From the NCBI GenBank assembly GCA_030248195.1, contig JASAND010022070.1, positions 33,241 through 97,240 on the forward strand: a stretch of DNA of 64,000 nucleotides, written 5' to 3'. Source of the DNA: Trissonchulus latispiculum (taxonomy: Eukaryota > Nematoda > Enoplea > Enoplida > Ironidae). The notes under the pieces are model-generated. The model did no database searches. It worked only from the letters and a program-made list of their open reading frames with translations, and was not told where the DNA came from. Every line of letters begins with the position of its first letter. Positions within the stretch are counted from its first letter, which is position 1. Of this stretch, positions 26,953-58,204 are shown piece after piece. Position numbers and translations under genes: made by a program.

Positions 26953-26961
26953 CCTTACAAT

Positions 26962-32420: not shown

Positions 32421-33415
32421 CGTAAATCAACCGGATAATCCAATAGAAAGCAAAGCACTGATGACGTCCGTAAAAAAGAATGCAAATCTGAAAAAGAATG
32501 CAAATCTAAAAAAAGAATGCAAATCTAAAAAAAGAATGCAAATCTAAAAAAGAATGCAAATCTAAAAAAGAATGCAAATCTAAAAAAGAATGCAAATCTA
32601 AAAAAGAATGCAAATCTCTAAAAAGAATGCAAATCTCTAAAAAGAATTTAAATATTAAACAGATAATTAGTTTAATTAATTAGTAATACTTAGACCAATT
32701 TCAGCCCAGGCTCATTAATATTAATAATATTACTAATATTACTAAATAATCAGTTAACTAATAAATATAATTATGTGACCGAAGTTAATTCAGCATGTGT
32801 ATATTACGTCGACACCAAGATTAATGTAACAGGTTTGCCCAATCTTATGTAATAACTGACACAAAATGGTAATCACCCATTTTCAGATTTGCATTGTTAA
32901 CTTTGTTATTCCTATGAGCCTACCAGAAGGCTGCTAACAGGGAGAGACAGGTTTGAGTCCTCAGTATGCTAAAGATATGAGCCTACCAGAAGGCTGCTAA
33001 CAGGGAGATATTAAGTAGAGACAGGTTTGAGTCCTCAGTATGCTAAAGATATTAGCCTACCAGAAGGCTGCCAACAGGGAGAGACAGGTTTGAGTCCTCA
33101 GCATGCTAAACATATGAGTCTGGGCTGAAATTGGTCTAAGTATTACTAATTAATTAAACTAATTATCTGTTTAATATTTTCATTCTTTTTAGAGATTTGC
33201 ATTCTTTTTAGAGATTTGCATTCTTTTTTAGATTTGCATTCTTTCTTAGATTTGCATTCTTTTTTAGATTTGCATTCTTTTTTTAGATTTGCATTCTTTT
33301 TTAGATTTGCATTCTTTTTTGGATTTGCATTCTTTTTTAGATTTGCATTCTTTTTTACGGACGTCATCAGTGCTTTGCTTTCTATTGGATTATCCGATTA
33401 TCCGGTTGATTTACG
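32421..33415. mobile_element. foldback element with ATGCAAAT minisatellite arms
   Basis: The outer ends CGTAAATCAACCGGATAATC and TCCGGTTGATTTACG are inverted. Each arm (about 300 bp) carries nine copies of a 17-19 bp unit AAAAAAGAATGCAAATCT (32473-32650, inverted at 33178-33355). It continues inward through CAGATAATTAGTTTAATTAA and GACCAATTTCAGCCCAG, mirrored near 33120-33170. The spacer (32915-33118) has three direct copies of GCCTACCAGAAGGCTGC followed by AGACAGGTTTGAGTCCTCAG. No coding capacity; Phe/Lys-rich frames through it are artefacts. Confidence 0.85.
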
Positions 33416-34002: not shown

Positions 34003-36387
34003 AGTATTTATTTAAACATAATATCTGTTTCAGAAACACGGAGAATTACTGAAACCTGAAACGATCATTGCAAATGAGCAGCGGGGATCGGGGGGGAGGG
34101 CGGAGCACCTCAGTAGTTGAGCATTTTTGCAATTACACGTAAATTCTTAATGAAAAGTATGAAAATGCTAATTTGTCATCAGTTACGTCTAGCATCTAAA
34201 GCTAATGCATTTTTGTTTTTGTGTTTTTTCAGGAAAAACTGTGGGCATTTTCTAAAAACAATTTGCTCGCTTTAGTAATTACACTGGCTTTTGGCTACAA
34301 TTCTGAAAGGTCCTGACCTTGAGTTGAGCCCTGTTTATTTGCGTAAAAGTTAGAATATACGAGACGATCATCGCTAGGATTGGGTGACTGAAGACTGAAC
34401 CACCATAAGTTAAAGTACATCTGAATCGCTTTGCTAAACTGAACTTTAGGAAAATTTCATGTAAATATTTATGTAATCTAGATTCTGGCTTGGCTCGGTG
34501 ATTGCAATTCAAAATGACAAAAAATTTTACTTTTGATTTCACGACGAAACATTTTCTTGAACAGGTGTTTTGAATCGACAGATAGCTGAATAGCCCGATA
34601 TCCGGATACCCACCATTAAGGTAAACTAGGCGGATATCCGCATAAGAAATAATTTCCAGTACATCATTTAATTTTGTTTCACGTAGAAAAGCTTCCAGGT
34701 TTAATATAATTCAATTTATTTGATGATTATTGAGCATCCTCCACCTTGCAGAAATAGTTCCAGACAGCTCCAAACTTCAAATCTTCACATTTTGAGAAAA
34801 GACTGAAACTACGTTCAGACTGAGTTTCAAGTCATTACCCAATTTGAGTTTCAATTTCAGTTTCTGTCGACGAGCATACGTCTAACTAGAGTCTAGTCAA
34901 ATCTGATATCAAATTCTTGCTTCGGGCAAGCACAGCACAATAATGTTGTTGCATCTGGCAATTTTTATACTTTTGAAACAATTATTAAAGTTAGAATTCA
35001 AAATCCAAACTTATATAATTCCACTATCAACGCGAATTTAGTCCCAAGTAATCCCACCATCCCATGTGGAACGACATCTGAATCCCATCCCATCCCATGG
35101 GATCCCATCCCATTCGTCAGAGCTGATCTTATCGGACAAACTCACATAATACGCATATTCAGAATTCAAGCTCCCTCTAGTTCCGCAAAAGTATTTATTA
35201 TAAGTATTTATTTAAACATAATATCTGTTTCAGAAACACGGAGAATTACTGAAACCTGAAACGATCATTGCAACTGAGCAGCGGGGATCGGGGGGCGGGG
35301 CGGAGCACCTCAGTAGTTGAGCATTTTTGCAATTACACGTAAATTCTTAATGAAAAGTTTGAAAATACTAATTTGTCATCAGTTACGTCTAGCATCTAAA
35401 GCCAATGCATTTTAGTTTTTGTGTTTTTTCAGGAAAAAACTGTGGGCATTTTCTAAAAACAATTTGCTCGCTTTAGTAATTACACTGGCTTTTGGCTACA
35501 ATTCTGAAAGGTCCTGACCTTGAGTTGAGCCCTGTTTATTTGCGTAAAAGTTAGAATATACGAGACGATCATCGCTAGGATTAGGTGACTGAAGACTGAA
35601 CCACCATAAGTTAAAGTACATCTGAATCGCTTTGCTAAACTGAACTTTACGAAAATTTCATGTAAATATTTATGTAATCTAGATTCTGGCTTGGCTCGGT
35701 GATTGCAATTCAAAATGACAAAAAATTTTACTTTAGATTTCACGACGAAACATTTTCTTGAACAGGTGTTTTGAATCGACAGATAGCTGAATAGCCCGAT
35801 ATCCGGATACCCACCATTAAAGTAAAATAGGCGGATATCCGCATAAGAAATAATTTCCAGTACATCATTTAATTTTGTTTCACGTAGACAAGTTTCCAGG
35901 TTTAATATAATTCAATTTAATTTTAATGATTATTGAGCATCCTCCACCTTGCAGAAATAGTTCCAGACAGCTCCAAACTTCAAATCTTCACATTTTGAGA
36001 AAAGACTGAAACTACGTTCAGACTGAGTTTCAAGTCATTACCCAATTTGAGTTTCAATTTCAGTTTCTGTTTACGTCTAACTAGAGTCTAGTCAAATCTG
36101 ATATCAAATTCTTGCTTCGGGCAAGCACAGCACAATAATGTTGTTGCATCTGGCAATTTTTATACTTTTGAAACAATTATTAAAGTTAGAATTCAAAATC
36201 CAAACTTATATCATTCCACTATCAACGCGAATTTAGTCCCAAGTAATCCCACCATCCCATCGTGGAACGACATCTGAATCCCATCCCATCCCATGGGATC
36301 CCATCCCATTCGTCAGAACTGATCTTATCGGACAAACTCACATAATACGCATATTCAGAATTCAAGCACCCTCTAGTTCCGCAAAAG
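34003..36387. repeat. tandem duplication, two units of about 1.19 kb
   Basis: Unit 1 is 34003-35191 and unit 2 is 35203-36387, period 1200. They start AGTATTTATTTAAACATAAT and end CTCTAGTTCCGCAAAAG. Only scattered single-base differences and small indels separate them. Each unit contains an 87-codon minus-strand frame (34542-34279 and 35743-35480), nearly identical and without motif, a GAAACT-type segment, and an ATCCCATCCC patch near its end. Whether the frame is a gene cannot be decided; its conservation follows simply from the recent duplication. Confidence 0.9.
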
Positions 36388-36547
36388 CACTTCATTTAAT
36401 TCTCAAAACACCATTCCAGCGATCATTTGGTATGCCACAGCTAGATCATAGATTAATAATGATAATTGAAACATCAATCAACCCTTTGACTATATGAGCG
36501 TACAGTGACTACAACGAAGCCTTTTTGTGTTAATACACTATACTGTA

Positions 36548-37165
36548 CATGTCTCTTCATTTCTTGATCAATAGACCGCAACTTTCCAACCTACCACCAA
36601 AATTTACTTTTAAAGCAGGTCCTGGTTAGCATAAGTACATAAACGTTTAAAAACGTTTGGTAGATTGGAAATATACTTGCATGCTTTGCACATCATGGTA
36701 TTCCTGGAAAAAACAGCAACTGATATATTATCGGTAAGGTGTTTAACTGTTTTAATGGCGAAATCTCACTCAAAATAGCTTCATTTGTGAAGATCCAGTA
36801 CCACAAGAAAATAGGATAGTAGTAAGATTGGAGGGATCCAAAGCAAGGCTTCTTTCATGTCTCTTCATTTCTTGATCAATAGACCACAACTTTCCAACCT
36901 ACCACCAAGATTTACTTTTAAAGCAGGTCCTGGTTAGCATAAGTACATAAGCGTTTAAAAACGTTTGGAAGATTGGAAATATACTTCCATGCTTTGCACA
37001 TCATGGTATTCCTGGAAAAACCAGCAACTGATATATTATCGGTAAGGTGTTTAAGTGTTGTAATGGCGAGATCTCACTCAATTATTCTAAATAGCTTCAT
37101 TTGTGAAGATCCAGTACCACAAGAAAATAGGATAGTAGTAAGGTTGGAGGGATCCAAAGCAAGGC
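36548..37165. repeat. tandem duplication, two units of about 305 bp
   Basis: Unit 1 is 36548-36849 and unit 2 is 36856-37165, period 308. Both start TGTCTCTTCATTTCTTGATC and end GGAGGGATCCAAAGCAAGG. A plus-strand frame in the second copy (36973-37206, 77 codons) has no recognised motif. Confidence 0.88.
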
Positions 37166-37318: not shown

Positions 37319-38062
37319 AGAGCAAGACATAACTTAATAAACCGAACATATTGAGCAATCAAATCCACAGTCTGCCAACGACAATATGTAAATTGGGCAA
37401 TGCAAAGTTGGCCTCTATGTGCTTCTGCATGCCATGAAGTTGTTGGATTGGAAACTGTAAGCTTAAAAACACAAACATAGGCAAATAATCCATAGTTCAA
37501 GTCATTTGGAATGGAATAGTCACTGTTTTTTCCACATGTAGCCTTTCCGGCATGATTATTTAAGCGGATAGGTTTAGAGTCACAAACCGTAATGCTGTCA
37601 GAGGAAGTGCAAGTGGTTCATAAAATTGGCCAAAGGATTCCCAGTACCGTAAAAATAAGTTGTCGTACCTAAATTCTAATAATCCAGTGTATTCCGACAT
37701 CGCGGAATTCTGATTAATATTTTTAAATCTTTCCATGAGATGGATCAAAATTTCAAGGTTTTTTAAAACAATAAGGTTTTTGCAAAGCTTTGAAGAAAAT
37801 GCAATTTTATTACGATTGACTTTAATTCATACCCATAGTACAAGCCCCCCATCGAAAATTTTGGCCCACAATAAAGCGTTTCATAATTTTTCCTTTGAAA
37901 AGTCAATCCCTGAATCCGTCCCTACTTTAACATATGACATAAGTGCATATAACTATAACTTTAGCATTGTTGAAGAATTGGAATTTAGATAACAGATACA
38001 GCATTTAAAATATGTCATTATTCTTCTGATATTACTCAACAGAGTTGTGTAGTATTTTATAG
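37318..38062. other. unassigned; minus-strand frames that look partly coding
   Basis: Two minus-strand frames, 37748-37560 (HLMERFKNINQNSAMSEYTG) and 37500-37195 (ATSWHAEAHRG-like context, CRWQTVDLIAQYVRFI), have balanced amino-acid composition and sit close together. They could be exons or a decayed transposase, but I recognise no family and see no clear splice sites. A plus-strand frame at 37735-37992 lies just before the channel TM1 exon. It lacks a good donor, so I did not use it as the N-terminal exon. Confidence 0.3.
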
Positions 38063-39845
38063 ATCATCCAATTCATATGATTACTTCCCATGGTTGGATT
38101 AAATGGATTGGCATCATTTCATTTCTAGCAACGATTACTGTCATTTTCCTTCATTCTGCTATTCTAATATCTTCATTTAACAAATTTCCAGTTACTGTTG
38201 TAACCCAGGTACGCAAGGAACAAAGGTTTAGCATATCACATTTGTTGATTAGATATCCTACGTCTGAGTGGTTATCGCATTGATATTTACATACTTCTTT
38301 CTAAACCGTTTTAAAATCATTTGAAAATAATGATGCATTAATTATGTAATACTATGGCATTATATAACAATGAAATCTCAAAACCTTTTGTAAGGTCAGT
38401 AAATGACTCACTGTTAGGCAATAGCTTCTACGATAAACAGTGGGGAAGTGATGTGAAAACTCAAAAAGGTACTTGTACAGTACATGTTTGCTGGCAGCAG
38501 CAATGATTACGCATCCACACGGAGTACAAACAAATGTGGCAAGGGTGGCAAAATAAACATAATAATTGCAAACAGTGTTCACTAGACCTATAGATAACTA
38601 CTTCAGCTGGCGCGCTGCTTTATGCGGAACAATGTTATGGACTGTCCTCTGATTCTGATTCCGAACAAATGACCTAGTTCACGAAAATTCACGATCAGTT
38701 CTTGTAGCACCGTAAAATGCGACAGAAGCTTTCAGTTCCAAGAAAATATTAGAATTACAAGCTTGAAGGTTTCAACAAGGGTGGCGACTTTCCTGGCAGC
38801 TTTTGAAACGTCCACCGAATCAGCAGAAGCTCATTTCGAAGCTTTCTTAGAATGATTTGATTATGGATGCCGCAGCCAAATTCCAAACAAAGTAGCCACC
38901 TTCCAATGAATCTTGATGCACTGAAACACAAGTAGAAAAACTTCCGACACGATTGGTGGGTTTCACTAACAACGTTCCAAGGTGCAACAGGCCGTCAAAT
39001 GCCTTCGGATCCGGTCACTCGGTAGATGCAAAGCGACAGCGTAATGACTGTGTGCACTTAAACTAGTCAGTCGTTAATATACGGCTTTGATTTATCTGCG
39101 TTTTGTAGTTTTATCTTGCAAATGACTTTCCCGCTACAACACTTTGCAGTCTAAATCCTTATTGGAAAACGGCTTGGTTGGAGACTGATTTTGGGCATAA
39201 ACTGGTAAGACAAAATAAAATAATACATTTCAATGACTTTCCATGACTACGTGATTAAATAAGTTGCCAGCAGCAGTCCTATAACCGTGGTGGTTATCAC
39301 GATTGTCGATGTTTTCTAAAATTTAAAAATTTCACTCACCACGGCGAGACAGTATCATCCGACGCTTAATCCAAGGAGTAAAACGCCTAACCCGCTCACT
39401 CCAATGACATCGCAAGGCAACAACCAACACACAACAACGACCACACCAACAATTTGGCCCAATCTCATATGGGGTCGCTCACTCCTTACTACTATTGCAA
39501 GTTTAAAGTGACAGCAAATTTTGGGATGAGGTCTGTAGCCAACATTCAATCAGATTGCAGAAACTTCTCTATTTTGATGGGGTCTAGCTATGGATTACGG
39601 TGCTCTAGACAATTTTTCACAAAGGTTCCATAATTTGGAGACGGGTCTCTCATATTCAATCCGAGTTTGCTATTAGGAGACCATTTTCGTAATCCTACCA
39701 GGCAGTCTTTTCACAAAAGAAGTTTCGAGCCCCCAAAATATCATGATCTTGTTCCTTTTTCATTTTAAGGTGTTCTTTTATATTCGCATGAATGAACTAG
39801 CGAACTCGAATATGTCATGGATACACACTCAGCAAAAGACCGCAT
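38063..39845 (+). CDS. channel exons 1-3 of model: TM1 and post-TM1 FPATTLC motif
   Basis: Exon 38063-38208 encodes SHGWIKWIG, then a hydrophobic span (IISFLATITVIFLHSAILI), then FPVTVV. This is the N-terminal HG signature, TM1 and the start of the ectodomain of DEG/ENaC channels. Exon 39109-39204 gives NDFPATTLCSLNPYW, matching the family's FPAVTLCNLNPF motif just outside TM1. Exon 39770-39845 (VFFYIRMNELANSNMSW) has an excellent acceptor (polypyrimidine then TTTTAAG) and is the helical stretch after it. Phases are 0/0, 0/0 and 0/1. The first exon enters in phase 1, so at least one upstream coding exon with the cytoplasmic N-terminus is missing. Confidence 0.8.
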
Positions 39846-42800
39846 GTAAGTGTTTCAGTTACTGAATATAACTTCAAACATGAAATTTTAGACTAGGCTA
39901 GTATACAAGCTAAATAAGTCAAGGCTAGATAACCAAAGAGAAACCATGGTTTGTGAGATTACTCAAATTAAGTTTTGGGCATTGCGCGGGCGTACAGAAA
40001 TCACCTTTCTGCTTCGGGTCTTTCAATATCTAAACACGGTACTGAAAAACCGACATCGTAAACTTTTAAAATATCCCTGTTTGAAGTTGGGGTGAATCCT
40101 TACAACTGAACTGTGTTTAGCGCCTGCGTACAACTGTCAAGATTGAATAAAATATAGTCACACACCTGACATCTAAATATATTCTTGCATAGCTAACTGC
40201 ATTGACAGTCATAGAAATTGCTGGGCTACAAAATCAGGATGCAATGAAATATCATCAATCGCATCATCCCATACATACCTTGAAGAAACTTGTGTAGCCG
40301 ACACCAATACTAGTGTGGAGAGCGATAGCTCAGGTTTTTGCAAAAACTTGGACGGACGCGCTGCACCATGGTGTTTCACGAACTCAAGTTTTAATTACTG
40401 CCTTGTACCGTGTCAGAGATCTGCCCGCTATAACGGTGAGACCTTATGTTGCATGATTAATCGGTTGGAAACACAATTGGAATCCATAATTTAATAGATC
40501 ATTTTGCTTTCCTTATCTTATTAAAACATGACAATTGTTACTTTTTCAGACCAAACATGTCCCCCAGGATGGGAACGAGGAGATCATCAGGTATAAACAG
40601 TTTTCGCCTTTTAACAGTTCTAGCTTGATACCTCAAAGGATTAAATTATACTTTAATGATTCATTATGGGCGAATTGCAAAACAACCGTAGTCTTTCTCA
40701 GTGGTATTTGGAAAATATAAGCCTTAATGTTGCATTTTGTGAAAAAAACTGCTTCGATTGCTTGCCCCATACTACAAACATTGCTTATTATATGTCTCCT
40801 TTAAGACATGACAAACGAAATGATAGTGAGAATATTTGCCAGAATATGCATCCCAACGCACATTTGCCCGCGTTTGTTGACTGGGACCAAGCCCAAGACT
40901 TCGTTTTTAATTTCGCGTAAGGAACAACTTACATTGTCTGTATTAAGTACATTCTTTCAAAACAAGCTTTTTATAAGATCAGACCTAACAGTTGAATTCT
41001 GTTGTGTGTTCATTGATTTACAATTAAAAGCGATTTCAATAAGTGAAAAGTCAGTGATAAGCCTTAAGGCCTTAAGGGAGTTCAATATTAGTCATTGTTA
41101 GTCCGTTTGCGGTTACGTTCATTTTCACAGTTATATTGTTGTTTGAGTGGTATACTTTAACTACTTTTGACAATTTAGGTAGCAAGTCTTCGTTTTCCTC
41201 ATCGCAAATTGTTACGTTTCTTGCAGATGAAAAACAGTTGTACACTATTCAAGTCAGGCGTAAATAAGTATTCCAACACCAAGGTTTCGTAGTAAATTAG
41301 CGCTAAATTTTGATACCAAGTTTCCTGGTACCTCTGTCCTGTTTCGTGATTTTGTCGGCTATTGTTGTTGATTTTTAAATTTTTAAATACAAATTTTTAA
41401 CAAAATGTTAATCTTTGCTTTTTATCTACATTTGCAAAATTATAACGAATGGCCCATTGGTGCATCTTTGGCCTTTCAATGTGTATTGTAGTGTGTTGTC
41501 GTGGTATCAATTTATCGCATTTGGAACAAAAATAGCGAGGTCAAGTTTGTTTGTTTGCCCCCATCCCCTATTTCACAGGCTATTTTTCAACTTTTTTAAG
41601 ACATGCATGATTGAACTAAAATGCGGAAGCGTTTTTTACAGCACTATTCTTTCGTTCATATACAAGTTGCATAAAGTCTGTAGCTCGTATGTAGTGGAAA
41701 ACAGAACGAAACAATTCAACAAGTTACCCCTTAAAAGGGGAATAATACCGCCGTAGTGTTTCCAATATATGTGTTCAATGTTTTGTTTGTTTTCATAGAA
41801 CACATTTTTCTACTGTTCTGTGACGTTAGCGTTTTGACTAGTTTCAACTCCCCAACATTTGCAGTTTCTGAGACAAAAGAATGACAATATTTTATTACTA
41901 TTGCCAATTGTAAAACTAAAATATTTCCTGAAGAAGGATTCGATCTGTGTCCGGACCAGCGCCAAGCGGACACTCTAACCACTACACTACTCTGACTTGA
42001 ACAAATTTATCGACTAAACCCCGAGACAGAAAATTATGATTTATCTATATATGTTTATTTTTAACAATTTATTTTATCTAAATTCTAAAGCAAAGCAAAC
42101 ACTAATGAAACAAATACAGTGCAAGCGCAAAATCTTTTCACACGAAAATTGTAATTGCAGTATTAGCTACCTATTGATTTGTTAAACGTCTACCATTCAA
42201 GTGACAGAAAAATAACGCCAGATTTTCGGTAATATGAGAAAAGGCAGACAGTAATCATTTGCAAACCAATTTACAGAGCGAAGAAAAAATTGAAGTAAAT
42301 CGACTGCAACAATGCTCTGAAAATTGCAAAATTATAGAAAAATTGTTGGGCGAAAAAAACCTGCGTACTAGGACATGTGTTGAAGATAGGACGGAAATCC
42401 TCCGCGCCAAGCAATTTACATGCAAAACATAGGAATTCAGATGGGTCAACCCATTACAAGTATACCGCCTCCGGCGGTATAAACATTACACTATTAGGAA
42501 TGCACGACATATGTGGCCATTAAATGACGTGCTAAAACGAGCGAAATCCGACATCTAAAACTTTTTCCGGATGGACGAACCGTATGTGGTCAGCAGTTAC
42601 ACTAAGCAACATATCCCACTAATTCAGCTTGGACAATTCGTTTTATGGTCAACGAATGGTGCAGCGATATGGATACAGAAGCTCAATATATCTGGCAGGA
42701 CAATACAAGCATGGAGCATGGGTGGCAGAATGGAAATTATCTGGAACGCCGTGCATACTGAAGTAATAACACTATTAAAGCCATTATGTTACCCATGAAT

Positions 42801-45800
42801 AGCCGGCAAACTTTAGAATATTTATATAAAAACTTAGCTATAGCTAAATTAAATTAGCTATATTAAACTCATAATAAGGGTCTGTCCGCACGAAAGGTAT
42901 CCAAATGTACCTAGGTAGAATGCCAAGTAGATCTTCTTTATTTAAATACTAAATCAATCGATACATTCATTTGTTATTTACTCATTAAATAATATATTTT
43001 GACAGAGAAAAATGTTTCATCTGGAACAGTCATCCGTCGTACTAACGCTTACCGATTTTTCGTTACATATATTGCAGCATTTTTTGAAGAATAAAAAACT
43101 TGGTGGTCAGACCAGTTCAGGGAAGGTAAACTTACGTACTTTCGTAACAGATGAAAACAATTTAGTATTCTATGCACGGTTGTGATCTCTATACGATTTT
43201 AATAGCTAACAAGTTATAACAGGTAGTATAAACGGCAAGTGCCATGTCAACATAAAGCAGTCATTTGTTAAAACCGAAGCATAGCAGATTATCTTCAAGC
43301 AGGAATCTAGTCTTCACGTATCAAACGAACGTTGTTATTTTGCAAGCATAGCTTGTTTGTAACGCTCGTTGCTGTCTTTATGCCTCGAGCTTCTCAAAAT
43401 TCCTTTGTATGCTTCTACTTTTTCTGTAGATTTCAACAATGACAATATTTTGCCAACAAAACCACATTATAGCATTAGATTGCGACAGAAACCTGCCCTG
43501 ACTTTACTTTACAAAAATTTAGGCATATGCACATTCATGTACAGCATTTAAGCCGAGACTGAGGTTGCAGCTCTCATGTAGTTATTTTATATTTCTCGCA
43601 AGGATTTTCGAAGTAGGGTGCTAGAGCTTATTTTTTTCAAGCTCTAGACTTGACATGATCCTCCACTTGTAGCGCAGTAAGAAACCACTGCACTACAGGA
43701 TGTTCCAAATTTTATTTGCTACTGTGTTGTCGGACATACACTTTTTAATCTTCGAGAAAGTATCAACCAGAATCGACCAGAATTAAATAATATACTAAAA
43801 ATTAATTATTCCTGCCATTTACTGACTCAGAATTTCAAAAATAGTCATAATTAGTATATATTGATTCAGAACAGATTCAAAATTAAATGAATATTGAATG
43901 AGTGTTTCTAACTTTCAATTTTTTCTAAATATTGCTTATTGCTTTAAAATTTGTTAATCCCTACGAGTTTTAACTGCATTTAATCACTCATTTGCTGCGC
44001 TTCCAAACAGTCAACGAAGTCGCTAGCTCTAATGTTTTGCTCCTCTACTTTTTGCTGAGAACAGAAAAGTATCAAAACTGGACTGTAGTACAGTTACTGT
44101 GAAGTTAATTTATTAATTCTTGGTCAAAATTATATTAATTTTAATTTCAAGTGCTATTGTTGGAGACGAATCTACAACATTATCCCTGGTGGTCGTTGCA
44201 AGTTTCTGCGATTCTTGCCCAATAATTATGCCAAAAATGATAAAAATTGGATAACGGCACCATTTGGTGAGTATATAATCACGAAAACTGAAACTGAAAC
44301 TAGGTGTTAGGCTGTACAGGTATCAGTTTCAGTCAGTGAAGCTGAAACTGAAATTATTTTGAATCGACGACTGAAAGAGAAACCGTCAACTGAATGAAAC
44401 TGAAATCACCTTCTGAAGCTACACTAGTAAAAGCTTTAGCCCTGCATAGATGAATCGCAACCTTTAAAATTTGGATAACCAAGCTCATATCTTTCAATTA
44501 TATAAGCATCCGAAACTGAATAGATTTTGAATGAATGGAAATTGTTCAGAATGAGAACAGAGAATTAGGGCTTTTAGTATTATTGTATGTTTACCGTATT
44601 ACGTTTTACTCTCTTCATACAAAGCATTGATTGTATAAAGAAATCTAACTGATCTGACTTCTAAAACGTATTGCTTTTACTATTTCAGAAAATAGATTGC
44701 TGCTGCTGTAACTGTAATTAGAGCCTAGTTATAGTTGATGTCATACCTGAACGGCAGGTCAAATTTCACTGACCCTTGTGGAAGCGAATTTGGGTACCCC
44801 TTGTGAGAGCAATTTTTCTTAAGCGTACTTTTGAAAGCGATTTTTAAGCTTTTTTAACGGTTTTTAACGAAAAACAGCGATTTTTTAGCTAAAACATCGT
44901 TTTTCGGACATTTTTTAGCGAAAAATAGTAACTTTTAATGAAAAATTCCGGCGTAGCCGGAAAATTTTGCGAAATTTTAGTCGTAAAACCTATTTTTTGG
45001 GCAATTTTCTTACCCCTTGTGGCCAATTTTCTTACCCCTTGTGAGAGCAATTTCGAGACCCCTTGTGGGCGACTTCGCGGCGGGGGGGGGGGAAATTTCC
45101 CCCCCCCCCTTTCCCCCCCCCCTTGTCCACCTGTGGTTGATGTTCGTGTTCCGGTTGGGGTGGTATTGCATATTTATTATTATATATTTTCGATTGGAAT
45201 TCGAAAAATTGATCCACATTAGGATCAGCGTCAGCATCGGGCATTTAAAACAAAATTCGAGGATTCGCCTCTGCCTCCAACATTACTGAGGTATAACCTC
45301 AGTTTTAGGCCCATTCTAGTTTGGATAATGTTTTAGACACCCGATCATCAGTTTTCTGGGAATCGCTTAACACGAATCTGAAAACCGTATTTCGATCTAG
45401 CTAAAGATACGCTAAAGTGTGCAACTTTTTAGCAAAACTGAAGAAAAAATTTTTGGTTCCCCTTGGCCTCTCCACTTAAAACATTTAATTAAAATTTTTT
45501 ATAATTTTAAAATTTTACTGCAGATCGATCATTTAACTATTTAAATGCGTCCATACCGAATTTGAATTAAATCAAGATTTTGCAAAGGTTACGCACATGT
45601 GTGCGCCTATCCTGTCTTAGTATCGCTGAAACTGTAAATAACTGATTAAACACTGTTAAAATTCATACGGGTGAACAAATTAAACATTTACAAATTATTT
45701 TAAAAGTAATTAGCACTACTTAAACAAAATTGAAAATTAGAAACACTCATAAAATTTAATTTTGAATCTGTTCTGAATCAATATATACTAATTATGATTA

Positions 45801-48800
45801 TTTCTGAAATTCTGAGTCAGTAAAAGGCGGGAATAACTAATTTTTTATTATATTATTTAATGCGTGTTAAAATTAAAACACTTAATATGTTCCACATCGA
45901 TTCTGGTTGATACTTTACAAGACGTATGTAAAAAGTGTATGTCCGACAATACAGTTGCAAATACAATTTGCGAGAAATATAAATAATTACATGAGAGTTG
46001 TTGCCTCTAGTATCTAGGTTTCACTCTTTCATACATGAACGTGATGAAACTGCTGAACTAAAGAAGGGGTTCCTGCAACGAGGACTCAGTTTTAAGAAAT
46101 GTGCAATAGGCAATAGACTGACAAATTTTCTCCAGCGTGCAGCGTATCTATGTGCAAGTTACTAAGCAGTGTAGACAAAAACTGGTGTTGTTGGTCTATT
46201 TTGTCCCGAAGCATAGAACTGTGCAAGATTCCCCGGATATTATCCAAACTCTTGTCTAAAAGGTAATTCTATTAGGTGTGTCTATTGATTTAAGAAGTCA
46301 ACTGCTTCTACCAAGCATGGGATAGTGAAACGCACCAGGAACTTAGTTGAAGAAATTTGACCTTTGATGATAGTTGACCGATGTACGACATACCTAAACT
46401 GGCAATCAGCGAGATTTGGAATAGATTTATTCTCGCATGTGTATTTAAAATAATCCAAAAATACTAGCTAAAATTTGGCACAAATTTGCTTTAAAACTTA
46501 AACTTTTATGACATAATTTGAGGTATTATGGCCAATGGAAGAGCCGGGATGAACTCCAAGCTCGCTGCATCTTGGTAAATTTCTTCAGTTTGGAGCCAAT
46601 TTTTGTCGTGTATCCTTGCAGTGAAGGAACCACCGTCGTTTGTCAAATACAAGATAACTTGAAAGATGTTTGCAAATCTTCAGGTATGTTTAATCGTAAA
46701 AACTATAGCATGTGTCGGTAAGAAGTCCTGGTGCAAGACTCAAGATATGACAGACAGTAAACATGCAAGTTCTTGTCAAAGGTGTGTGATGCCCGAATAT
46801 CGAAAAAAATGGCGTTGGCTGTCCAGTAAAATAAAAATAGATTGGTTCGGCAAAAAGCTAGTTTGAAATCAAAACACCATCATTTATTTGGTTCTCACAA
46901 ATAGGACTGATATCAGGATAAACTTCGAATCAGTCCACGCAACTAACAAAACACCAAACTTCAGAGCACTATTTGGAATGGCAGAAGACGATGCAACTCA
47001 ACCTGAGCAACCCACAACGATATTCACGCCCATCTAACTAATCAGTACCTTTCTCCAGACTTGTGACTTGTTTGATGAGTCATTCTGACCACGAAACTAG
47101 CTACTCATAATTTTATCTTAATCATTTATGAAACGTTACATTTTACTTCAACCCCAACTGTTCATAAGCTTAACACACGGATATCTCTCATACTCTACAT
47201 GTAAAACAAGATCACTCCTAAAAGGGGAATATGCCTTCGTTGATCCATTTAGATATCATTATTTAAAAATTTGCTGAATCGAATTTCTGAAGATTTACTC
47301 AATTTACTCAATCCATTGACTCAATCCACATTGACTTGAAAATCAAACTGACATGTAAAGCATCAATTATATAACTATGATCTGAGAACCAAAATTCAAA
47401 AGAAATCGTTCCATTGAAGTTACTTAAAATTTTACTTGCCAGAATGCAACGTCTCAGATTGTGTGCGGGCCATCGTTTTATTTCCACACTCAACGCATCA
47501 TGTTTAAAAACAGTATATATCTAAAATACTATGTTCAACAGTGAATTAATCTTAACACCTTAACCACTACACTAGCCCAACTGTATTAACCAGGCATCTT
47601 AATTGAATCACTGACACACGGATATCTCTCATACTCTACACATGTAAAAACTGATCTGATAAAATTTGATTTTTGACTGCTTTTAATCAGGCAAACATGA
47701 AAACTGGGATTTGAATGTTTTAGACAATGATTTGGTGTTTAACTTTAACCTAGCTCCACCAGTTCTTGAAGCGGTTCTTATGGACTTACTGAAGTCAGAC
47801 AACAGTAAGGACAGACTTTCAAAACTGTTAGTAATGATTCAAAGGACTCCTATGTCAGCAATTAGCTCATACTTTCAATCAGTCGTAAGTATGCAGCTTA
47901 TAGTAGCGTTTTCGGTATGTCAACATATTATGCAATTATTCTGCATATGTGCAAAAACATATCTCTTAAGTAGCAGTCATCTAGCTTGCATAGTAAATGC
48001 TCTTTTGTGACAGCTTGTGAAGACTTCATTTTTAAGCATTGCAGTCTATGCGATAGTAACTGTGAACTTGCCACGCCGTAGTAAGTAGGAGCCTACAACG
48101 CTTTTATGGCCTTTTAAATTGGCACCCCTAGTTTAACCTTGCCTCCCGCATCTCTCACAATATCATACATGTTCCTGAGAGGAGCGACATTTCGGATCGT
48201 ACCCCTTAGGCCTAGAGCGCACCGTCTTCTCAATTTGCTGAATTTCTCGATTCATAGGTAAAATGCACGAAGCAGAATCTGGCAGCTGACTTTCCATTCA
48301 CCAAATATGGCTCCTACAAACATATGTTTGGTTATATCTCATGATACTTATACCGTTAGATCTCAGTTATACCGCTACTTCAACTATACGAAATCAGCAA
48401 ATGAGAATCCAGAAATAATAATTGCTTCGAAGCAAGTTTCCGGAAATTGGCTTAGGAAGCTAAAAAGTTATTTTGGAAGATTTTAATCATATTTCAATCT
48501 AATTGGTATCAGCTGTAAACAGTATGTCTAGAGAAATGTAATCATAAATATGAAGTAATTTTGCTAGCAAGCCGTAGCGTTTGAATATTAACAGAAGTTT
48601 AACGTGATGATATGGTCTGTCTAACGTCAAAAATAAAAACATATTTGACCTACATAAAAGTGTTGGTTGTCTGCACTTTCAATTATTATCATTTTAGACT
48701 AACTTAATGATATTTGCGCAAAATAACCAAGAGGACTGGCTTTCGAAGAAAACATTATGGACCTTAGCCACCCAACTAATTAACGATATTTTAATGAACT

Positions 48801-50075
48801 CCCCAGACGAACCACTGAATGAAGGATTCAGGGGAAATAATGTTGACAGCTTTATCTCAGACTGCAAGTTTATGTCCACTGCATGTGACAGGTTAGCGCA
48901 AACCCAAACCAGTTTTCGAGATTGAAGTTTTAATAAAGCAATGGAGAAGAGTTCAGCCTTGGTTGTCCTGAGTTATGAGAGGTAGGAATAATTAATTAAA
49001 CGTGTGTTGTTCTGGATGGAGAGATTAGGCTGTTCACATATAATTGTTGCAGCTACATAATAACAGTAATAATTAATGTATTTTAATGCAGGCATGACCT
49101 AACATATTTTCAAGATCCAAATTTTGGTGACTGTATCACAGTATTACAACGAACACAAATTATGCTTCCTGGTGAAAGAAATGGTAAATTTAAACTTTAC
49201 GAAAATTATGAACGAAAAACATTAAAAACCTATGCGTTCTCTTCAGATCTTGGCGTAAAGTTATACTGAGACGACTATTCAGCCGTTAGCGAACATGCAG
49301 CAACTGTCCTAAAATCCCTAGCGCTAAAGTGAAAGCGAAATGAAAATTGCTAGTGTGAAAAACAGCTTTCTGGACGGATTTCCATTGTAGTTAAAGCAGT
49401 AAGCACCAGAATGCTGAGGTTCCATGTTAGCTTCATTGACTTTCAACTTGCGATCTCATACGACTTTAGGTTTCCAAGTTGTGCTCAGATCGCCAGAGAA
49501 AGTGAATTTGTTTAGCGGTTCATTTAAAACAATAATGGCAGCAGTGGTTCATCACAAGACAAGAAGACCATTTCCACTGGTAGAAGGGCTTTCCCTTCCA
49601 AAAGGTTATGCTACCTGTCTGCAGGTTTCACTGGTATGTTTTGTTATTATATCTGTAGAACAACCGCATGTAGGTACTAGGTAGGTAGGTAGTAGGTACT
49701 CGAATGACTGACACTCCTTCAGTGCAGATCACGTATAGAATAATTGGCTGTTATCATCGAAACTTCATTGTTAGTATTAAAAAATCAATGAACTGCAGGT
49801 GAGACAATCTCTAATGTCTTATAATTCGGTTTGGTTGCTTGTTGATGAGTAATCTAGTTTGCTATCCATACTGTTAAATTTACCTTGTCGCAACAGACTA
49901 AAGCATATAATCTGATGGATGCATGGATCTGATATGAACCTTATTGAAAGCTCTAATTGTTTTATATGTAATACAGAAAACTGAGATAAGGAAGGGTAAA
50001 CCATATGGGGTCTGTGCCAACAAATTCTATTCTGAAACTGATCATATTGGAAACGGAACCAGCTACAACCTACAG
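38063..50075 (+). CDS. DEG/ENaC-family ion channel with kringle and C-type-lectin insertions (multi-exon model, partial)
   Basis: A hand-built model of 15 exons: 38063-38208, 39109-39204, 39770-39845, 40193-40435, 40550-40590, 40702-40916, 42628-42762 (or to 42721), 44152-44266, 46523-46574, 46622-46683, 47691-47884, 48698-48891, 49092-49183, 49470-49633, 49977-50075. All use AG acceptors and GT donors. Reading-frame phases agree at every junction except exon 7 to 8, which also agrees if the donor at 42722 is used. DEG/ENaC subunits are trimeric cation channels (often Na+-selective) of the plasma membrane with two TMs and a large Cys-rich ectodomain. Here TM1, the post-TM1 motif, the finger cysteines and the palm are recognisable. 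The ectodomain is enlarged by kringle-like and lectin-like modules. The N-terminal exon(s) and the thumb-TM2 exons are not found. Confidence 0.75.
40193..40435 (+). CDS. channel exon 4: kringle-like domain
   Basis: This 243-bp exon (acceptor GCATAG, donor GTGAGA, phase 1 in and 1 out) encodes eight Cys. The second half, GFCKNLDGRAAPWCF followed by NYCLVPC, is the classic kringle signature (YCRNPD...PWCYT...YC-x-IP-x-C). The first half (NCIDSHRNCWATKSGC) is less typical: it has two extra Cys and lacks the usual GxxYxG. A symmetric 1-1 exon is how kringles are usually carried and shuffled. Kringles are disulphide-linked protein- or ligand-binding modules of secreted or extracellular proteins, consistent with an ectodomain site. 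Confidence 0.78.
40550..46683 (+). CDS. channel exons 5-10: C-type-lectin-like domain
   Basis: Exon 40550-40590 gives TCPPGWERGDHQ, the usual opening of a C-type lectin-like domain. Exon 40702-40916 gives ENICQNMHPNAHLPAFVDW, matching the A-x2-x-C-x(5-6)-A-x-LA helix region. Exon 42628-42762 gives SIYLAGQYKHGAW, matching the WIGL...G-W strand. Exon 44152-44266 (GGRCKFLRF) and exons 46523-46574 and 46622-46683 (LAASC, then EGTTVVCQ) supply the C-terminal Cys pair (...C-x5-9-VCQ). Joins 40590/40702, 40916/42628, 44266/46523 and 46574/46622 are in phase. Between 42762 and 44152 either a small exon is missing or the alternative donor at 42722 is used. No clear Ca2+-binding EPN/QPD triplet is visible, so sugar binding is not implied. 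Confidence 0.7.
41930..42000 (-). repeat. tRNA-derived SINE head in an intron
   Basis: On the minus strand: GTAGTGTAGTGGTTAGAGTG (A-box region), then after about 30 bases CAGATCGAATCC (B box). No acceptor stem. The 5' part recurs on the minus strand near 47560-47590 (CTAGTGTAGTGGTTAAGGTG). Confidence 0.55.
43561..43900. repeat. dispersed repeat, left inverted copy (with SINE insertion)
   Basis: GAGGTTGCAGCTCTCATGTAG through ATTTCTCGCAA, then GTGTTGTCGGACATACACTTT and TTGATTCAGAACAGATTC. The reverse complement of all these blocks is at 45750-46010. It is split by the tRNA-like SINE at 43635-43700. It lies in an intron of the channel gene. Confidence 0.7.
43635..43700 (-). repeat. tRNA-like SINE head, same family as 13552-13615
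   Basis: CAAGCTCTAGACTTGACATG and TAGCGCAGTAAG-ACCACTGCACTAC. The minus strand reads GTAGTGCAGTGGTTTCTTAC then CAAGTCTAGAGC, a plausible A and B box pair. Confidence 0.5.
44286..44415. repeat. GAAACT-rich dispersed repeat in an intron
   Basis: AAACTGAAACTGAAACTAGG, GTTAGGCTGTACAGGTATCAG and GCTGAAACTGAAATTATTTTG align block by block with 16436-16615. Confidence 0.65.
44745..45300. repeat. ACCCCTTGTG repeats and poly-G/poly-C hairpin
   Basis: ACCCCTTGTGGGAGC-like motifs recur near 44797, 45010, 45034 and 45058. A G10 run (near 45081) faces a C13 and a C11 run (near 45100-45121), separated by AAATTT and TTT, forming a short but strong potential hairpin. AGCGAAAAA repeats precede it. Non-coding. 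Confidence 0.55.
45750..46010. repeat. dispersed repeat, right inverted copy
   Basis: Reverse complement of the repeat at 43561-43900, ending TTACATGAGAGTTGTTGCCTC. No SINE insertion in this copy. Confidence 0.7.
47691..50075 (+). CDS. channel exons 11-15: finger and palm of DEG/ENaC
   Basis: Exons 47691-47884 and 48698-48891 encode a helical region ending ISDCKFMSTACD. Exon 49092-49183 continues with YFQDPNFGDCITVL. Together these match the family pattern C-x-F-x3-x-C...F...T-x-YG-x-C-x-x-FN. Exon 49470-49633 gives GFQVVLRS, VVHHKTRRPFPLVEGLSLPKG and CLQVSL, matching the palm (GL-x-L-x-L...VH...P...PG...I-x-L). Exon 49977-50075 gives KPYGVCANKFYS, the R-x-L-x-x-PYG-x-C start of the thumb. 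All five junctions are in phase. After 50075 the donor GTGACT is clear, but the next exon (C-x3-C, CxC and TM2) was not located before the repeat-filled region begins. Confidence 0.82.
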
Positions 50076-50379
50076 GTGACTAAACAAAGTTTCAAGTAGT
50101 AGTGTCGAATTTCTCATTTTTATGCGAAGGTCCAGTGTTAGGATTTTTTGGCCATGTCTACATAGCCTTGGTAGGCCAATTGTGGCAGGTAACCAGTTTA
50201 CAAATCACAAGCTACATCTCTTAACGTTGTTAAGTAATTTCAACACAACGTAGATGTCTACGAATTTTAAACAATTGCGCCCAAGTGTAATCTCGATAAG
50301 GATTAATCTGCATTTGCCCCGACTTAGCAAATTTTAGTTGTATTCAAATAGACCGTAAGGAAATGATGCAATATCGCAT

Positions 50380-51005
50380 AGCCACACGTTGTGTCGGATC
50401 TTTTGCGCTTCCCCCCCCAGCCCTAACTTTGATTTTTTTGACCAATAACTTTGAAATTTGGTATGAGTGCATACTGGAGGCTGGTGAATTCAAAATTTTA
50501 AAATTTTTAAAATTTTTAAAAAATTTTAAATTTTTGTTGGTAAGGGGAAGGGGAACCAAAAAAACTTTTGAAAAAAATTTTGCTGAAAATTTGCATACAG
50601 GGGTTTTCTGGGGTGCTGAGCACGAATCTGAAGTCCATTTTTCGATTCAGTTTTTCGTTAGCTTGCTATAAGCTTACATGTTAAGCTTACAACTTTAGCT
50701 TATACTGAGCTAACGAAATGCTGAATCGAAAAACGGATTTCAGATTCGTGCTCAGCGCCTCAGAAGCCCCAGTATGCAAGTTTTCAGCAAAATGTTTTTC
50801 AAAAAGTTTTTTGGTTCCCCTTGGTCCTCCCTTACCAAATGAAAATTTAAAATTTGTTCAAAATTTTTAAATTTTTTTGAATTTTTTAATTCACCAGCCT
50901 CCAGTATTCACCCACACCAAATTTCAAAGTTATTGGTCAAAAAAATCAAAAGTTAGGGCTGGGGGAAAAGCGCAAAATATCCGTTGTGTCTGTGTGGATC
51001 CGGAA
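50380..51005. mobile_element. foldback element, arms about 300 bp
   Basis: The left arm contains CACACGTTGTGTCGGATC, CAGCCCTAACTTTGATTTTT, TGGTAAGGGGAAGGGGAACC and GAGCACGAATCTGAAGTCC. The right arm contains their complements in reverse order. The centre is near 50690 (AAGCTTACATGTTAAGCTTAC). A loose relative of part of it lies near 45365-45470. It comes just downstream of the last recognised channel exon. Non-coding. Confidence 0.78.
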
Positions 51006-52967
51006 TTTCAGTATAATACTCTCAGCAAACACTATTCTCGCGTAGAGCCTAATGAGGTAATGAAGTATAAGAGCATTATGAGGTAGAATTGTAAGGATGA
51101 TGAGAAAGAGATCAATTGTGTCTGCTAACTCTATTCCACATTCAATCCCTTGTCTGCATAACAGTCTGTTACGTTAAGACCAGCAACTGTACCCCTAAAA
51201 ACGTTAGCGGTTTGTTTGGTCAACAAAGAATGACAAAAATATAACATTTCATGTAATTTTCATAGCCGAGCCTGCAATCACAGGTGACATCTTATCTTGT
51301 TACTTTTGTTCGACATAGAGCGGCTGATATTTAGCTTCCCTTGAACAGCTGTTGTGTCATAAATAAAATATGCAAACTGAAGTCTGACACAAAAATTTGT
51401 GTAGAAAACTATTATAGATTCTACTGCATTATATATTAATCAAAGACCCATATCATTATATACTTTCAGAATCACCGTGATCAGAAAAACAATTTTTTTT
51501 AAATTTTAAATTTTGAAAATTTTCAAAAATTCAAAATATCGGTTTATCGGTGTTTTTCTCAGGAATAGTCATGCTAAAATTTCTTTCTATCAGCAAAATT
51601 TTTTCATCTCTAAACGAATGACGAATAAACGACGAAAGTATGACGCAAGAACTAAGAATTTCGGTTAAGGTTTGAAGTTTGAAATGGTTTGAAATTATTA
51701 GGATATAATTCAAAATTTTCAAAATACTTTGATCTTGGCCGCTTTTTTATCTTTGGCATGATATGTACTGCTCGCACAGTACTTGATAGAAAGTATTTGT
51801 TTCCACTTTGAGGACCGCTTAGGCATATGCTCTAACGTAGTAAAATTTGAAGTAAACTTTTCAAAATTCGAAAGTTGATTTTTTTGAAGAATGACCACTT
51901 TCTGACCCAAAACTTAATATGTTGGTTTCTGACCCAAAACTTAACGTTTAAAATTGAGTATAGATGCGTTACGCTTAACACGCCATCTTTGCTGAATTCA
52001 ACGATGTCAACATGTTGCCGCTAGAATGCATTTCGTGCGGAATAAATTTAAAACATTTACCCGCATTCCAATAGGATTTTGGCTATTGCCGTTGTGAAGT
52101 TGACTATACGAGCCTTATGAAATAGTGTTGTCTATCAAATTATTAGGTTAATGCCCTCATATACAGGTGAATACCGATAGTGTGCAATGTCGGAGGACGA
52201 TGAGACCTGACCAACTAAACTTGAGAAAAGGTTACAACGATGTTACGGATAATTCGAATGCAAGCTCAACTATTGACAATTATCAAAAATGCAACACTAA
52301 GTTAGAATATTACTGAACAGTTTTAACACAAAATTATAGCAAGCACCTAAATAAATTCGAACCTATAAACTCCAAATAGGAATTCCCGAACTTACAAAGT
52401 GCAACCTTGCCCAAACTGACTGACGGTAACCCAACTTAACATGCCGAACTTTAGCTAAGTAACCTAAACTTCTACACATCGGTGAGAAAAATCATTGAGC
52501 GTTTGTTAGAATTTATCACCAAAATCACTAAGGCTTAGAGTCGCATGAATATTTATATTTTCTCTGCCGGTGCTATGTCAAAAACTATAAATGCCAGACA
52601 CTGACACATGCTGGTTAAGCCGCGCAGGCTAATTAATAATGTCGCTGTAGATTTGCTACGAATCATGTTATCAACACAACTTGCACAAAATTTGCGGTTG
52701 TTACGATCCAAGAATTGAATCACCACATCACTACAAAACGCCTTGCCTCTCGGAAATCACTACAAGTAAGCGTTTGTAGCACAGATTGTTCAGCTGCGGC
52801 AAGAAAATGTTTAGTTAGAATAGTTAGCTAGGCTTGAGGTGCTTTGGAGCTGAACTGCAGATGCTGTCTGCAGAACGCAGTCTGCAGCCTGAAACGCTGT
52901 TTCTACCAGATGCAGAATGACCATCTCATTTCGCACACTTAACTTTCCTTATCAATATTAGTTTGAC
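51006..52967. other. no gene found; decayed foldback relative near 51700-51930
   Basis: CAAAATACTTTGATCTTGGCC, GAGGACCGCTTAGGCATATG and GACCCAAAACTTAA near 51717-51940 are diverged versions of blocks in the 19157-20612 foldback. Elsewhere I see AT-rich sequence and no convincing exon, although the missing channel exons would be expected on this side. Confidence 0.4.
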
Positions 52968-53541
52968 TTAAGGTGGTGGTATCGTTTACCGCACTGGTGT
53001 AGACTGAAAATTTTGAAATGGCAACCTATACATTTGACCACGTTACACCATTAAATTACCAAAATTTTGCGTATTCGCAAAGATTTAGCTTTCATAGCTC
53101 GGTGGTAACTCTATGTTAGAGAGCTGAAATTTATTATGCGGAGACATGAATATCTTGCCGAGGGTCATTTTCAGCATTATAGTTACTGTTTAGCATGTCG
53201 AAAGGAAATAACTAAAAACGCACATTGATGCCATTTTTCAAAATTCAACATGCAATATCTCAGCTGGTTTTGATTCAAACAGAAAACTAGGAAAAATGAC
53301 CCTGCAGTAGGCTTTAGTCTAATTTTATACAAAATTTGAAAACATAAAACTACTCGAAATATGATAAAAGCTTGTTTAAAACATAAATCAACTTCAGTAT
53401 TCAACGGTCAACATAATTTATGCTTAGCTAAGTGTTGGCTTGTCATCACAAAGGCGCAGAGTAGTGTTGACGAAATGAACTGATTTTGATATCGTAAATT
53501 AGTGAAACAACATAACAACAATTTCAACCACAATTTCAATT

Positions 53542-53558
53542 CCAACAATCAAAATCGG

Positions 53559-53646
<88 letters not shown>

Positions 53647-53668
53647 CAGCCGATTTTGAAATTGTTGG
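53542..53668. repeat. (TA)n run inside an inverted repeat
   Basis: An uninterrupted TA run of about 80 bp (53560-53641) is flanked by CAAAATCGGCT on the left and AGCCGATTTTG on the right. Further out, CCAACAAT and ATTGTTGG also match in inverse. The whole 127 bp can fold into one long hairpin. Confidence 0.85.
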
Positions 53669-53910
53669 GGGAGGGGTTATGTTATGTTATGTTTAATATT
53701 TAACCAGCCAACAAAAGTATAAGTAATACAACAAACAACGTAATAAGTGGTACAGAACAAGAACTTGCAGTCCAAATAGAGCGAATATGAGTTTCTGCAA
53801 AGTAGGGCTAGTAAGGGGCCAGGTTATGCCGAACATCGACTAATATTCAACCTGATCAATTCTAATTTTAATTGTAGCGAGACGACTTTTAAATTCAGAT
53901 AAAGTTTTAG

Positions 53911-54890
53911 CTAATACAATATTGTCAGGCAAACTATTCCAAAATTTATAATCCTTTCAATAAAGAAATATTTTCGAATATCAAGCCTGCTGTTGTTAGC
54001 TGCCAGTTTCAAACTATGTCCTCTGGTTACATCGTTACTGTTAAGTTTGAAAAACAACATACAGTCCAAATCAATCTTTCCGTTTATAATTTTGTAAACT
54101 ATTACTAGGTCTCGACGTAAACGTCTTTCCTCTAGAGTTTCCAAATTTAAACGTACTAAACGTTCTTCGTAGCAAAATTGCGAGTATCCCGGAATTCGAC
54201 GAGTGAAATACCTTTGTACTTTTTCTATAACTGCCACATCCTTAATTAAATAAGGATTTCATAACTCACTGCCATATTCTAATTTCGGCCGAACATAAGT
54301 CGTAAATATGTTACGTAGAAAATGCGCTGACGTTGAATGAAAATTTCTAAAAATTAAATGTCATTGTGTATCCAATTTTAGCCAACTTTAAACAGTGTGT
54401 CGATGACTTCAGATTACTAGTAATAGTCAACCCCAAATCTTTAACACTGTCACAAGCAGGTATCTCAAAATTTCCTAGGAAATAAGGCTGTCTCATTGTT
54501 ATATCCCAGATAGAGCAAATTTGATGTTTGAAAAGCTATTTTTAACTGATTTCTAAGAGCCCAATCATTTATGCTGTCAATATCAGCTTGGATTGAAATA
54601 GATTCAGCTGGTTTACTGTAAGCTAAATAGAATTTAGTGTCGTCAGCATAAATTTTTGCCGACATGCTTGACAAACAATCTTCTAAATCATTCATGAAAA
54701 TGATAAATAAACGAGGTCCCAATACACTTCCTTGAGGAACACCAGATAAGACATTTCTTACAGTAGAGGCGGCACCATTAATCTGAACAAACTGTGTCCT
54801 GTTACATAAATACTCTTCAAACCAAAGGTATAATTTTCCATTTATTCCGTAACTTTTTAACTTTGTTAGGAGCTTCGAATGTGACACTGA
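53911..54890 (-). pseudogene. 5'-truncated LINE, C-terminal half of reverse transcriptase
   Basis: The frame 54887-54465 has VLSGVPQGSVLGPRLFIIF and KIYADDTKFYLAYS, with the YADD catalytic box intact, then INDWALRNQLKIAF. After a frame break, 54237-53911 has AVIEKVQRYFTRRIPG, YEERLVRLNLETLEERR and VIVYKIING, the C-terminal segment typical of CR1/jockey-type LINEs. The endonuclease and first half of RT are absent, the usual result of 5' truncation during insertion. Confidence 0.88.
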
Positions 54891-57661: not shown

Positions 57662-58204
57662 ATCCGAAATCTGGATTGCAGCAATTTTCGTAGCAACCCA
57701 AACTCATTTGATTAACTTAATTGCATCTTGCAAAGTCAGTCATAGCAAAACGTTCTAGATTTTGATTACGATAGTCAGAATTGAGTAGATCCAGGTTTCA
57801 GTTCTAGCTAATTTAGGTAAAATCCAATCTTCGCTTCATAAGAGAATATAAGCGGTATATCAAACAATATCTTTCTTTGCTCTATTCTCTGATCCTTGGG
57901 AGTACTTAGCGAAAGGTGTTTTTGCAACCGCTTTTCATTGTTCTCTAATACATAGATATCGTTACTTTCATATTCTAGTGATATGCTTGCAACAGTTCAA
58001 ACATTCTGTCAAAAGTGGGGCAATAACGCTTTCCTGTAGATGCCCAATTCCATGTCGGTAATTTAACTTTAAATGTCATTAAATACTAAAGCTACTGGAG
58101 TAGAGCAAATTTATTTAGTTATTAAATTTGTTGGTTGCCCGGGATAGTTCTTGAATATGGTTGTCCAGGATCTGATAGGGCAACAAATCATAACTCATGG
58201 TTTG
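57662..58204. other. no recognised feature
   Basis: AT-rich sequence with no supported gene or repeat. Confidence 0.35.

Follow-up and report, generated by a model that had tools for sequence, protein, structure and literature searches.

A candidate DEG/ENaC channel gene with extracellular modules

The stretch of DNA analyzed here, 64,000 bases of contig JASAND010022070.1 of the nematode Trissonchulus latispiculum (positions 33,241 to 97,240, forward strand; 0 N, 38% G+C; hereafter the window), probably carries a single sodium-channel gene of the DEG/ENaC family in which kringle-like and C-type-lectin-like modules lie between the strand that follows the first transmembrane segment (TM1) and the finger cysteines. 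We read the plus strand through 37600-43200 and 46200-50600, listed part of the open reading stretches, and lettered the exons A to N plus M2, 15 in all and every one on the plus strand. In the overall picture that emerges, they form a piece of a DEG/ENaC gene with one kringle-like exon (D) and four lectin-like exons (E to H) spliced into the finger, where they would serve as a gating arm; we consider the chances of this predicted whole to be even.

The channel part of the predicted gene is secure. Exons A-C matched Pfam ASC (PF00858; curated cut-off 23.6 bits, profile length 455, rows listed up to E 1) over profile positions 11-92 with E 7.5e-7 and 29.0 bits, and exons J-N, which cover the finger, palm and thumb, matched it over positions 129-365 with E 1.4e-15 and 57.7 bits. 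When A-C were joined in frame to I-N and the insert was omitted, a single ASC match ran from 11 to 365 and scored 93.2 bits. With the cassette D-H in place, the resulting 694-residue chain scored 61.4 bits, split over two stretches of which the better begins at profile position 114 in exon J, and this break in the score places the insert between profile positions 92 and 114. The initial annotation had located the insert after the post-TM1 strand and ahead of the finger cysteines, and the significant ASC matches on both sides of a gap at profile 92-114 bear this out. Searches of the PDB agree with the profile: A-C matched ENaC gamma (E 1.8e-4), and all ten matches of J-N up to E 1 were DEG/ENaC subunits, with FaNaC1 the best (E 1.6e-8). 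An earlier piece made of exons I-M and a provisional exon N, with M2 absent, gave no ASC match; its PDB search returned a weak match to FaNaC1 (E 0.007), and 7 of its 8 matches up to E 1 were DEG/ENaC chains. NCBIfam, a bacterial and archaeal library, returned 0 families for the two pieces scanned. DEG/ENaC identity is found on either side of the insert, on the same strand, in the same order and with in-phase outer borders.

Exon A (38063..38208, +; HPIHMITSHGWIKWIGIISFLATITVIFLHSAILISSF...) carries the HG motif and TM1, ends at the donor cag/gtacgc and is covered by the Pfam ASC and ENaC gamma matches; its 5' boundary is uncertain, with an acceptor at 38062, another AG at 38052 and an in-frame ATG start as the candidates. 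Exon B (39109..39204, +; DFPATTLCSLNPYW; phases 0-0) is the post-TM1 strand with FPATTLC and lies within the ASC match over profile 11-92; the HG motif, TM1 and the FPAxTxC strand are all present in A-B. Exon C (39770..39845, +; VFFYIRMNELANSNMSW...; phase 0 in, 1 out) is open and, judging from the order, would correspond to finger helix 1. On the far side of the insert, exon I (47691..47884, +; KHENWDLNVLDND...; phase 1 in, 0 out) is the linker back to the finger and falls within the continuous ASC match once C is joined to I. The finger itself begins with exon J (48698..48891, +; SFISDCKFMSTACD), the first of the exons behind the ASC and FaNaC1 matches of J-N. It is followed by exon K (49092..49254, +; HDLTYFQDPNFGDCITV...; phase 2 in, 0 out, or phase 2 out from an alternative donor at 49259), by exon L (49470..49624, +; FQVVLRSPEK...VVHHKTRRPFPLVEGLSLPKGY; preferred acceptor in phase 1), which aligned to FaNaC1 and ENaC, and by exon M (49977..50075, +; KTEIRKGKPYGVCANKFYSETDHIGNGTSYNLQ), which is part of the ASC match and of the FaNaC1 and ENaC alignments.

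A motif scan extended the gene past 50075, where the initial annotation had stopped, to 58057, newly adding two exons. Exon M2 (52651..52765, +; phase 0 in, 1 out) contains ICYESCYQHNLHKICGCYDPRIESPHHYKTPCLSEITT, thumb cysteines and CYESCYQHNLHKICGCYDPR and is also supported by the ASC match and by alignments to FaNaC1 and ENaC, and exon N (57979..58057, +; ICLQQFKHSVKSGAITLSCRCPIPC, CRCPIPC; phase 1 in, 2 out) carries the ASC match to profile position 365 of 455. The joins M-M2-N are in phase, and the finger/thumb cysteine pattern through C-x-C-x2-P-C is present in exons J-N. The order given in the initial annotation (HG-TM1, FPATTLC, the next exon, kringle-like, C-type-lectin-like, finger/palm, all on the plus strand) was confirmed by reading and by the coordinates.

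The kringle-like exon

Exon D (40193..40435, +; GFCKNLDGRAAPWCFTNSSFNYCLVPC; phases 1-1) encodes 80 residues with 8 cysteines and is best described as a kringle-like module. A C-terminal core of the form C..N.DG..PWC is readable in it together with the last four cysteines, and alignments with PDB kringles agree with this reading. Exon D alone matched Pfam Kringle (PF00051) with E 1.3e-4, and none of the 9 controls (8 shuffled versions and one reversed) gave a Kringle match; one shuffle matched a different cysteine-rich family at E 0.0084, an indication of the noise level. Its PDB search up to E 10 returned 58 sequences, 6 of leucine-rich-repeat type and 52 that are chains of kringle-bearing proteins, which we take to be plasminogen, hepatocyte growth factor (HGF), apolipoprotein(a), prothrombin, ROR, Kremen and others. 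A canonical kringle has 6 cysteines, and its ligand site follows the pattern NPD-x-D; in exon D the second Asp of this lysine-binding pair is replaced by Arg.

Several results weigh against the kringle assignment. The Pfam match scored 22.7 bits, below the curated cut-off of 34.3 bits, and took in only the second half of the domain. It weakened to E 0.013 inside a 655-residue chain, and the 694-residue chain showed no Kringle row at E values up to 1. A structure prediction for exon D alone was uninformative (predicted local distance difference test, pLDDT, 44.5).

The C-type-lectin-like exons

That exons E-H are C-type-lectin-like is probable but unproven. The module would start in exon E (40550..40590, +; TCPPGWERGDHQ, TCPPGWERG...; phase 1 in, 0 out), which was recognized by its motif, and continue through exon F (40702..40916, +; ENICQNMHPNAHLPAFVDWDQAQDFV; phase 0 in, 2 out), matched by the PDB chains 2e3x_B and 1iod_B, and exon G (42607..42750, +; WTIRFMV...YIWQDNTSMEHGWQNGNY), matched by 2e3x_B and 6pwr_A. 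It would end in exon H (46561..46683, +; RCILVNFFSLEPIFVVYPCSEGTTVVCQI, RCILV...YPCSEGTTVVCQI; phases 1-1), which the 2e3x_B alignment covers. When exon E and the long first loop were removed, the trimmed piece of 114 residues had three PDB matches up to E 10, and all three were C-type-lectin chains (E 0.26, 0.68 and 0.86). Their register was consistent, with 2e3x_B aligned over residues 3-110 of 114 and shorter alignments for 6pwr_A (26 residues) and 1iod_B (40 residues). The control searches yielded two matches for the reversed piece and one for a shuffled piece, and none of these three was a lectin. The E-values of the trimmed piece are at noise level; the lectin fold is favored because all three matches share one fold and one register.

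On the other side of the balance, Pfam Lectin_C (PF00059) gave no row in any version scanned, the full 175-residue E-H piece had 0 PDB matches up to E 10, and the best match of the reversed control, to an unrelated protein, had E 0.034 and so beat every match of the real piece. The lectin call of the initial annotation is left with its motifs and the three weak PDB matches of the trimmed piece, and lacks Pfam support. The three families named there fared unequally in the profile searches, ASC exceeding its cut-off, Kringle remaining below its own and Lectin_C being absent.

C-type lectins bind calcium and sugar through the motifs EPN/QPD and WND. By eye, neither was seen in the lectin-like part encoded by exons G-H. 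A carbohydrate ligand, which the initial annotation had entertained beside a protein one, was rejected as a first guess on these grounds and is left without support. Five N-glycosylation sequons are spread across exons D, F and G.

Splice phases and integrity of the gene

With the splice sites that the fold prefers, 12 of the 14 junctions are phase-matched. The chance of this with random phases is ~8e-5, a flattering figure, as the sites were picked knowing the frames. The initial annotation had the phases matching through the whole chain, with one junction depending on the choice of donor; with the preferred sites this holds for 12 junctions, and the remaining two, F-G and K-L, are in phase only with GT-AG alternatives that shorten conserved strands. 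For exon G, acceptors at 42607 or 42628 are in phase 1 and do not match exon F, and the acceptor at 42665, in phase 2, does; the resulting GT-AG pair, 40916 to 42665, costs the conserved strand WTIRFMVNEWC. For K-L the in-phase GT-AG pairs are 49254 to 49499 and 49259 to 49489 or 49516, and all of them lose FQVVLR or more of a conserved stretch; a GC donor at 49252 would leave exon L whole. The chain may be wholly in phase with slightly shorter exons, or there may be small assembly indels, or lesions in the gene.

The two mismatched junctions raise the possibility of a broken gene, the relic of a channel once built in this way, its frame interrupted at F-G and K-L. Such a relic would also agree with the mobile-element remains in the flanks (some identified by eye) and with the scans of the 5.9 kb that follow exon N, in which no second transmembrane segment (TM2) was found. 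Against it, none of the 15 exons contains a stop codon as read, and a neighboring polymerase-B element also shifts frame, so that small assembly indels are possible too. The in-phase GT-AG alternatives available at both doubtful junctions raise the case for an intact gene and lower that for a broken one. We regard a broken gene as quite unlikely, and an intact, expressed gene is, on the predicted exons, rather likely.

The cassette D-H (40193-46683) enters and leaves in phase 1, and its outer borders match the channel exons on either side. Phase 1-1 is the classical symmetric class of shuffled modules. Skipping of D-H would consequently keep the frame, and exon C could be spliced straight to exon I, so that the in-phase borders alone are no proof that the cassette is included in the mRNA. 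This must be weighed with the possibility that D-H forms a kringle-lectin gene of its own within the C-I intron, or is left out of the channel mRNA altogether. Here the direct join of C (phase 1 out) to I (phase 1 in), which gives the best continuous ASC match, is in its favor. A second point for this explanation is that exon H, read through its donor (46561-46740, +), runs on for 12 residues (GMFNRKNYSMCR) before a stop, and an alternative short 3' end is conceivable. However, the intron between C and D is just 347 bases long and introns D-E and E-F are short as well (114 and 111 bases), so that a separate promoter and a signal-peptide exon would hardly fit ahead of D; no clear signal-peptide exon was seen there by eye, and the phases of D-H fit the channel neighbors on both sides. 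With the 347-base intron and the in-phase borders, we judged a separate nested gene unlikely, and the explanation as a whole, exclusion from the mRNA included, improbable.

Mis-assembly could also have placed the kringle-lectin stretch where it is, as the order is known from one assembly. The window, though, holds no N and no gap, and in-phase borders combined with short introns would have to be a coincidence; we consider this very improbable.

Our preferred reading, in which one DEG/ENaC gene spans both modules, is the best fit to these data, with its complementary ASC halves and in-phase outer borders. We infer that D-H belong to one transcript with the channel exons, that the insert falls between finger helices 1 and 2, the site of the GRIP domain of ENaC, and that its second part has a lectin fold. 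Since the post-TM1 strand precedes the insert and the finger cysteines follow it, the GRIP position is by order the most likely one. Beyond the two doubtful junctions and modules below their cut-offs, other points count against this reading. The 5' end of the gene is uncertain or missing in the chain. A motif scan of 50000-64000 on the plus strand found no TM2 with a selectivity filter; a hydropathy scan of 58058-64000 (+) returned 4 stretches, and by eye none of them resembled TM2, which may lie beyond the window. The 655-residue A-N chain built without M2 had no ASC row up to E 1. Searches for relatives in a protein database, which we guess to be poor in animal proteins, found none among 2628 candidates at E <= 0.01 and none among 1447 candidates at E <= 10. 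Finally, the reading is drawn from genomic DNA, so that the exon chain is predicted and the binding and gating assigned to the arm are putative.

A possible gating arm

If the modules are translated as part of the channel, they would form a built-in extracellular arm in the finger region of the ectodomain. A partner, which could be a protein or a matrix component and probably not a calcium-dependent sugar, would bind the arm, and the bound arm might shift the finger against the thumb so that the pore opens or closes. Alternatively, the arm might act as an anchor to the matrix and in this way pass force on to the gate. In-frame skipping of D-H could yield a form of the channel without the arm. 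We put this mechanism forward tentatively, by analogy with relatives gated through the same region, and rate its chances as somewhat short of even. Taken furthest, it becomes a one-chain receptor-channel, a trimer with three exon-shuffled kringle-lectin arms whose pore would be opened directly by an extracellular or matrix protein and whose armed and plain forms would be toggled by splice choice; this fuller picture, built on the predicted chain, we find doubtful.

The architecture may also be real and the arm have no part in gating, serving as a glycosylated spacer or as a module for trafficking, assembly or anchoring. The five sequons noted above would suit such a role, and both modules are without parts of the canonical ligand sites (the Arg in the kringle-like exon and the missing EPN/QPD and WND). 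Moreover, finger helices are described as poorly conserved even in close relatives (PMC11026163), and added modules may be tolerated there. The position of the insert points the other way: by order, it sits at the site through which proteases gate ENaC (PMC6197857) and a peptide gates FaNaC1 (PMC11026163). On balance we hold a non-gating arm to be rather unlikely.

Were the gating arm to prove real, it would provide a natural and genetically testable covalent tether, or a directly protein-gated channel, with adhesion-type modules in the gate-coupled finger. Such a tether would bear on the poorly known question of how channels of the touch type in the DEG/ENaC family attach to the matrix. The arm would further mean that a trimeric channel can take in entire extracellular modules by shuffling and still retain its core.

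Flanking DNA

Downstream of exon N, a C2H2 zinc-finger open reading frame (60211-61368, +) lies within remains that extend over 60211-64000 (+) and that we take to be of Maverick/Polinton type. Two of the seven pieces scanned matched DNA_pol_B_2, at 61263-62372 and 62293-62763 (+), in two frames; they cover successive parts of the profile, 7-92 and then 121-196, with the frame change between them. This change fits indels and equally fits a decaying element.

Upstream, tandem units of ~1.2 kb with 95-99% identity occupy 34003-36399, and a further unit, of 226 bases, recurs at 36548-37081. At 32434-33399, arrays of an 18-19-base unit (AAAAAAGAATGCAAATCT) run in opposite orientations and create long inverted repeats, such as 32546-32715 with 33114-33283. 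Elsewhere in the window, Gypsy-like fragments with RNase H/reverse-transcriptase-like and integrase-like frames (3353-4797, -, and 26905-27729, +) and LINE-like fragments with reverse-transcriptase-like and endonuclease-like frames (29388-31112, -, and 54468-54911, -) were named by eye. Neither the Rfam nor the tRNA scan of the window produced a match.

Comparison with known channels and modules

No DEG/ENaC channel with a kringle or C-type-lectin module was named in the titles and openings of abstracts listed by the literature searches, which lay largely outside subscription journals, and the words "kringle" and "lectin" had 0 occurrences in the main text of the DEG/ENaC papers that were searched for these terms. 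Comparison has to be made with the modules and the channel separately.

The kringles of plasminogen and HGF share the C-x-N-x-DG...PWC core with exon D. Against plasminogen, exon D scored E 2.8e-12 summed over the kringles, with 0.0082 for the best single stretch; for angiostatin the best single stretch had E 0.0044. Exon D differs from these kringles in its divergent first half, its 8 cysteines (as against the usual 6) and the Arg in place of the second Asp, and also in context, since it lies outside any protease or growth factor. The lectin chains weakly matched, in a consistent register, by the trimmed piece of E-H are the factor X activator light chain (2e3x_B), CD23 (6pwr_A) and factor X binding protein (1iod_B). 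E-H are unlike them in that the matches are at E 0.26-0.86 with no Pfam match, the four exons lie inside a channel gene, and no sugar motifs are seen by eye.

Among channels, the annelid FMRFamide-gated sodium channel FaNaC1 (PDB 8on7) is the closest to J-N, being the best PDB match over query residues 49-224. Its finger helices 1-3 form a pocket that binds a short peptide, and no kringle or lectin module is named for it in the available text (PMC11026163). Across the family, the first three finger helices are described there as divergent yet important for gating, and they have been proposed as sites of matrix tethers (PMC11026163).

Human ENaC gamma and alpha (PDB 6wth, 6bqn) resemble the predicted protein in the TM1/FPA strand, where gamma gave the match cited above, and in the palm. 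ENaC, too, has an extra domain of its own, GRIP, which follows finger helix 1 and precedes finger helix 2, and proteolysis of GRIP relieves inhibition of the channel (PMC6197857). As a beta domain, GRIP is small and sensitive to proteases; the D-H insert would instead add about 250 residues, kringle-like and lectin-like in sequence. Lectins have been proposed as force-transmitting partners of ENaC glycans, and what is known about the nature of the tethers is described as scarce (PMC7958617). That proposal puts the lectin in the matrix (PMC7958617), whereas in the gene described here it would sit within the channel itself.

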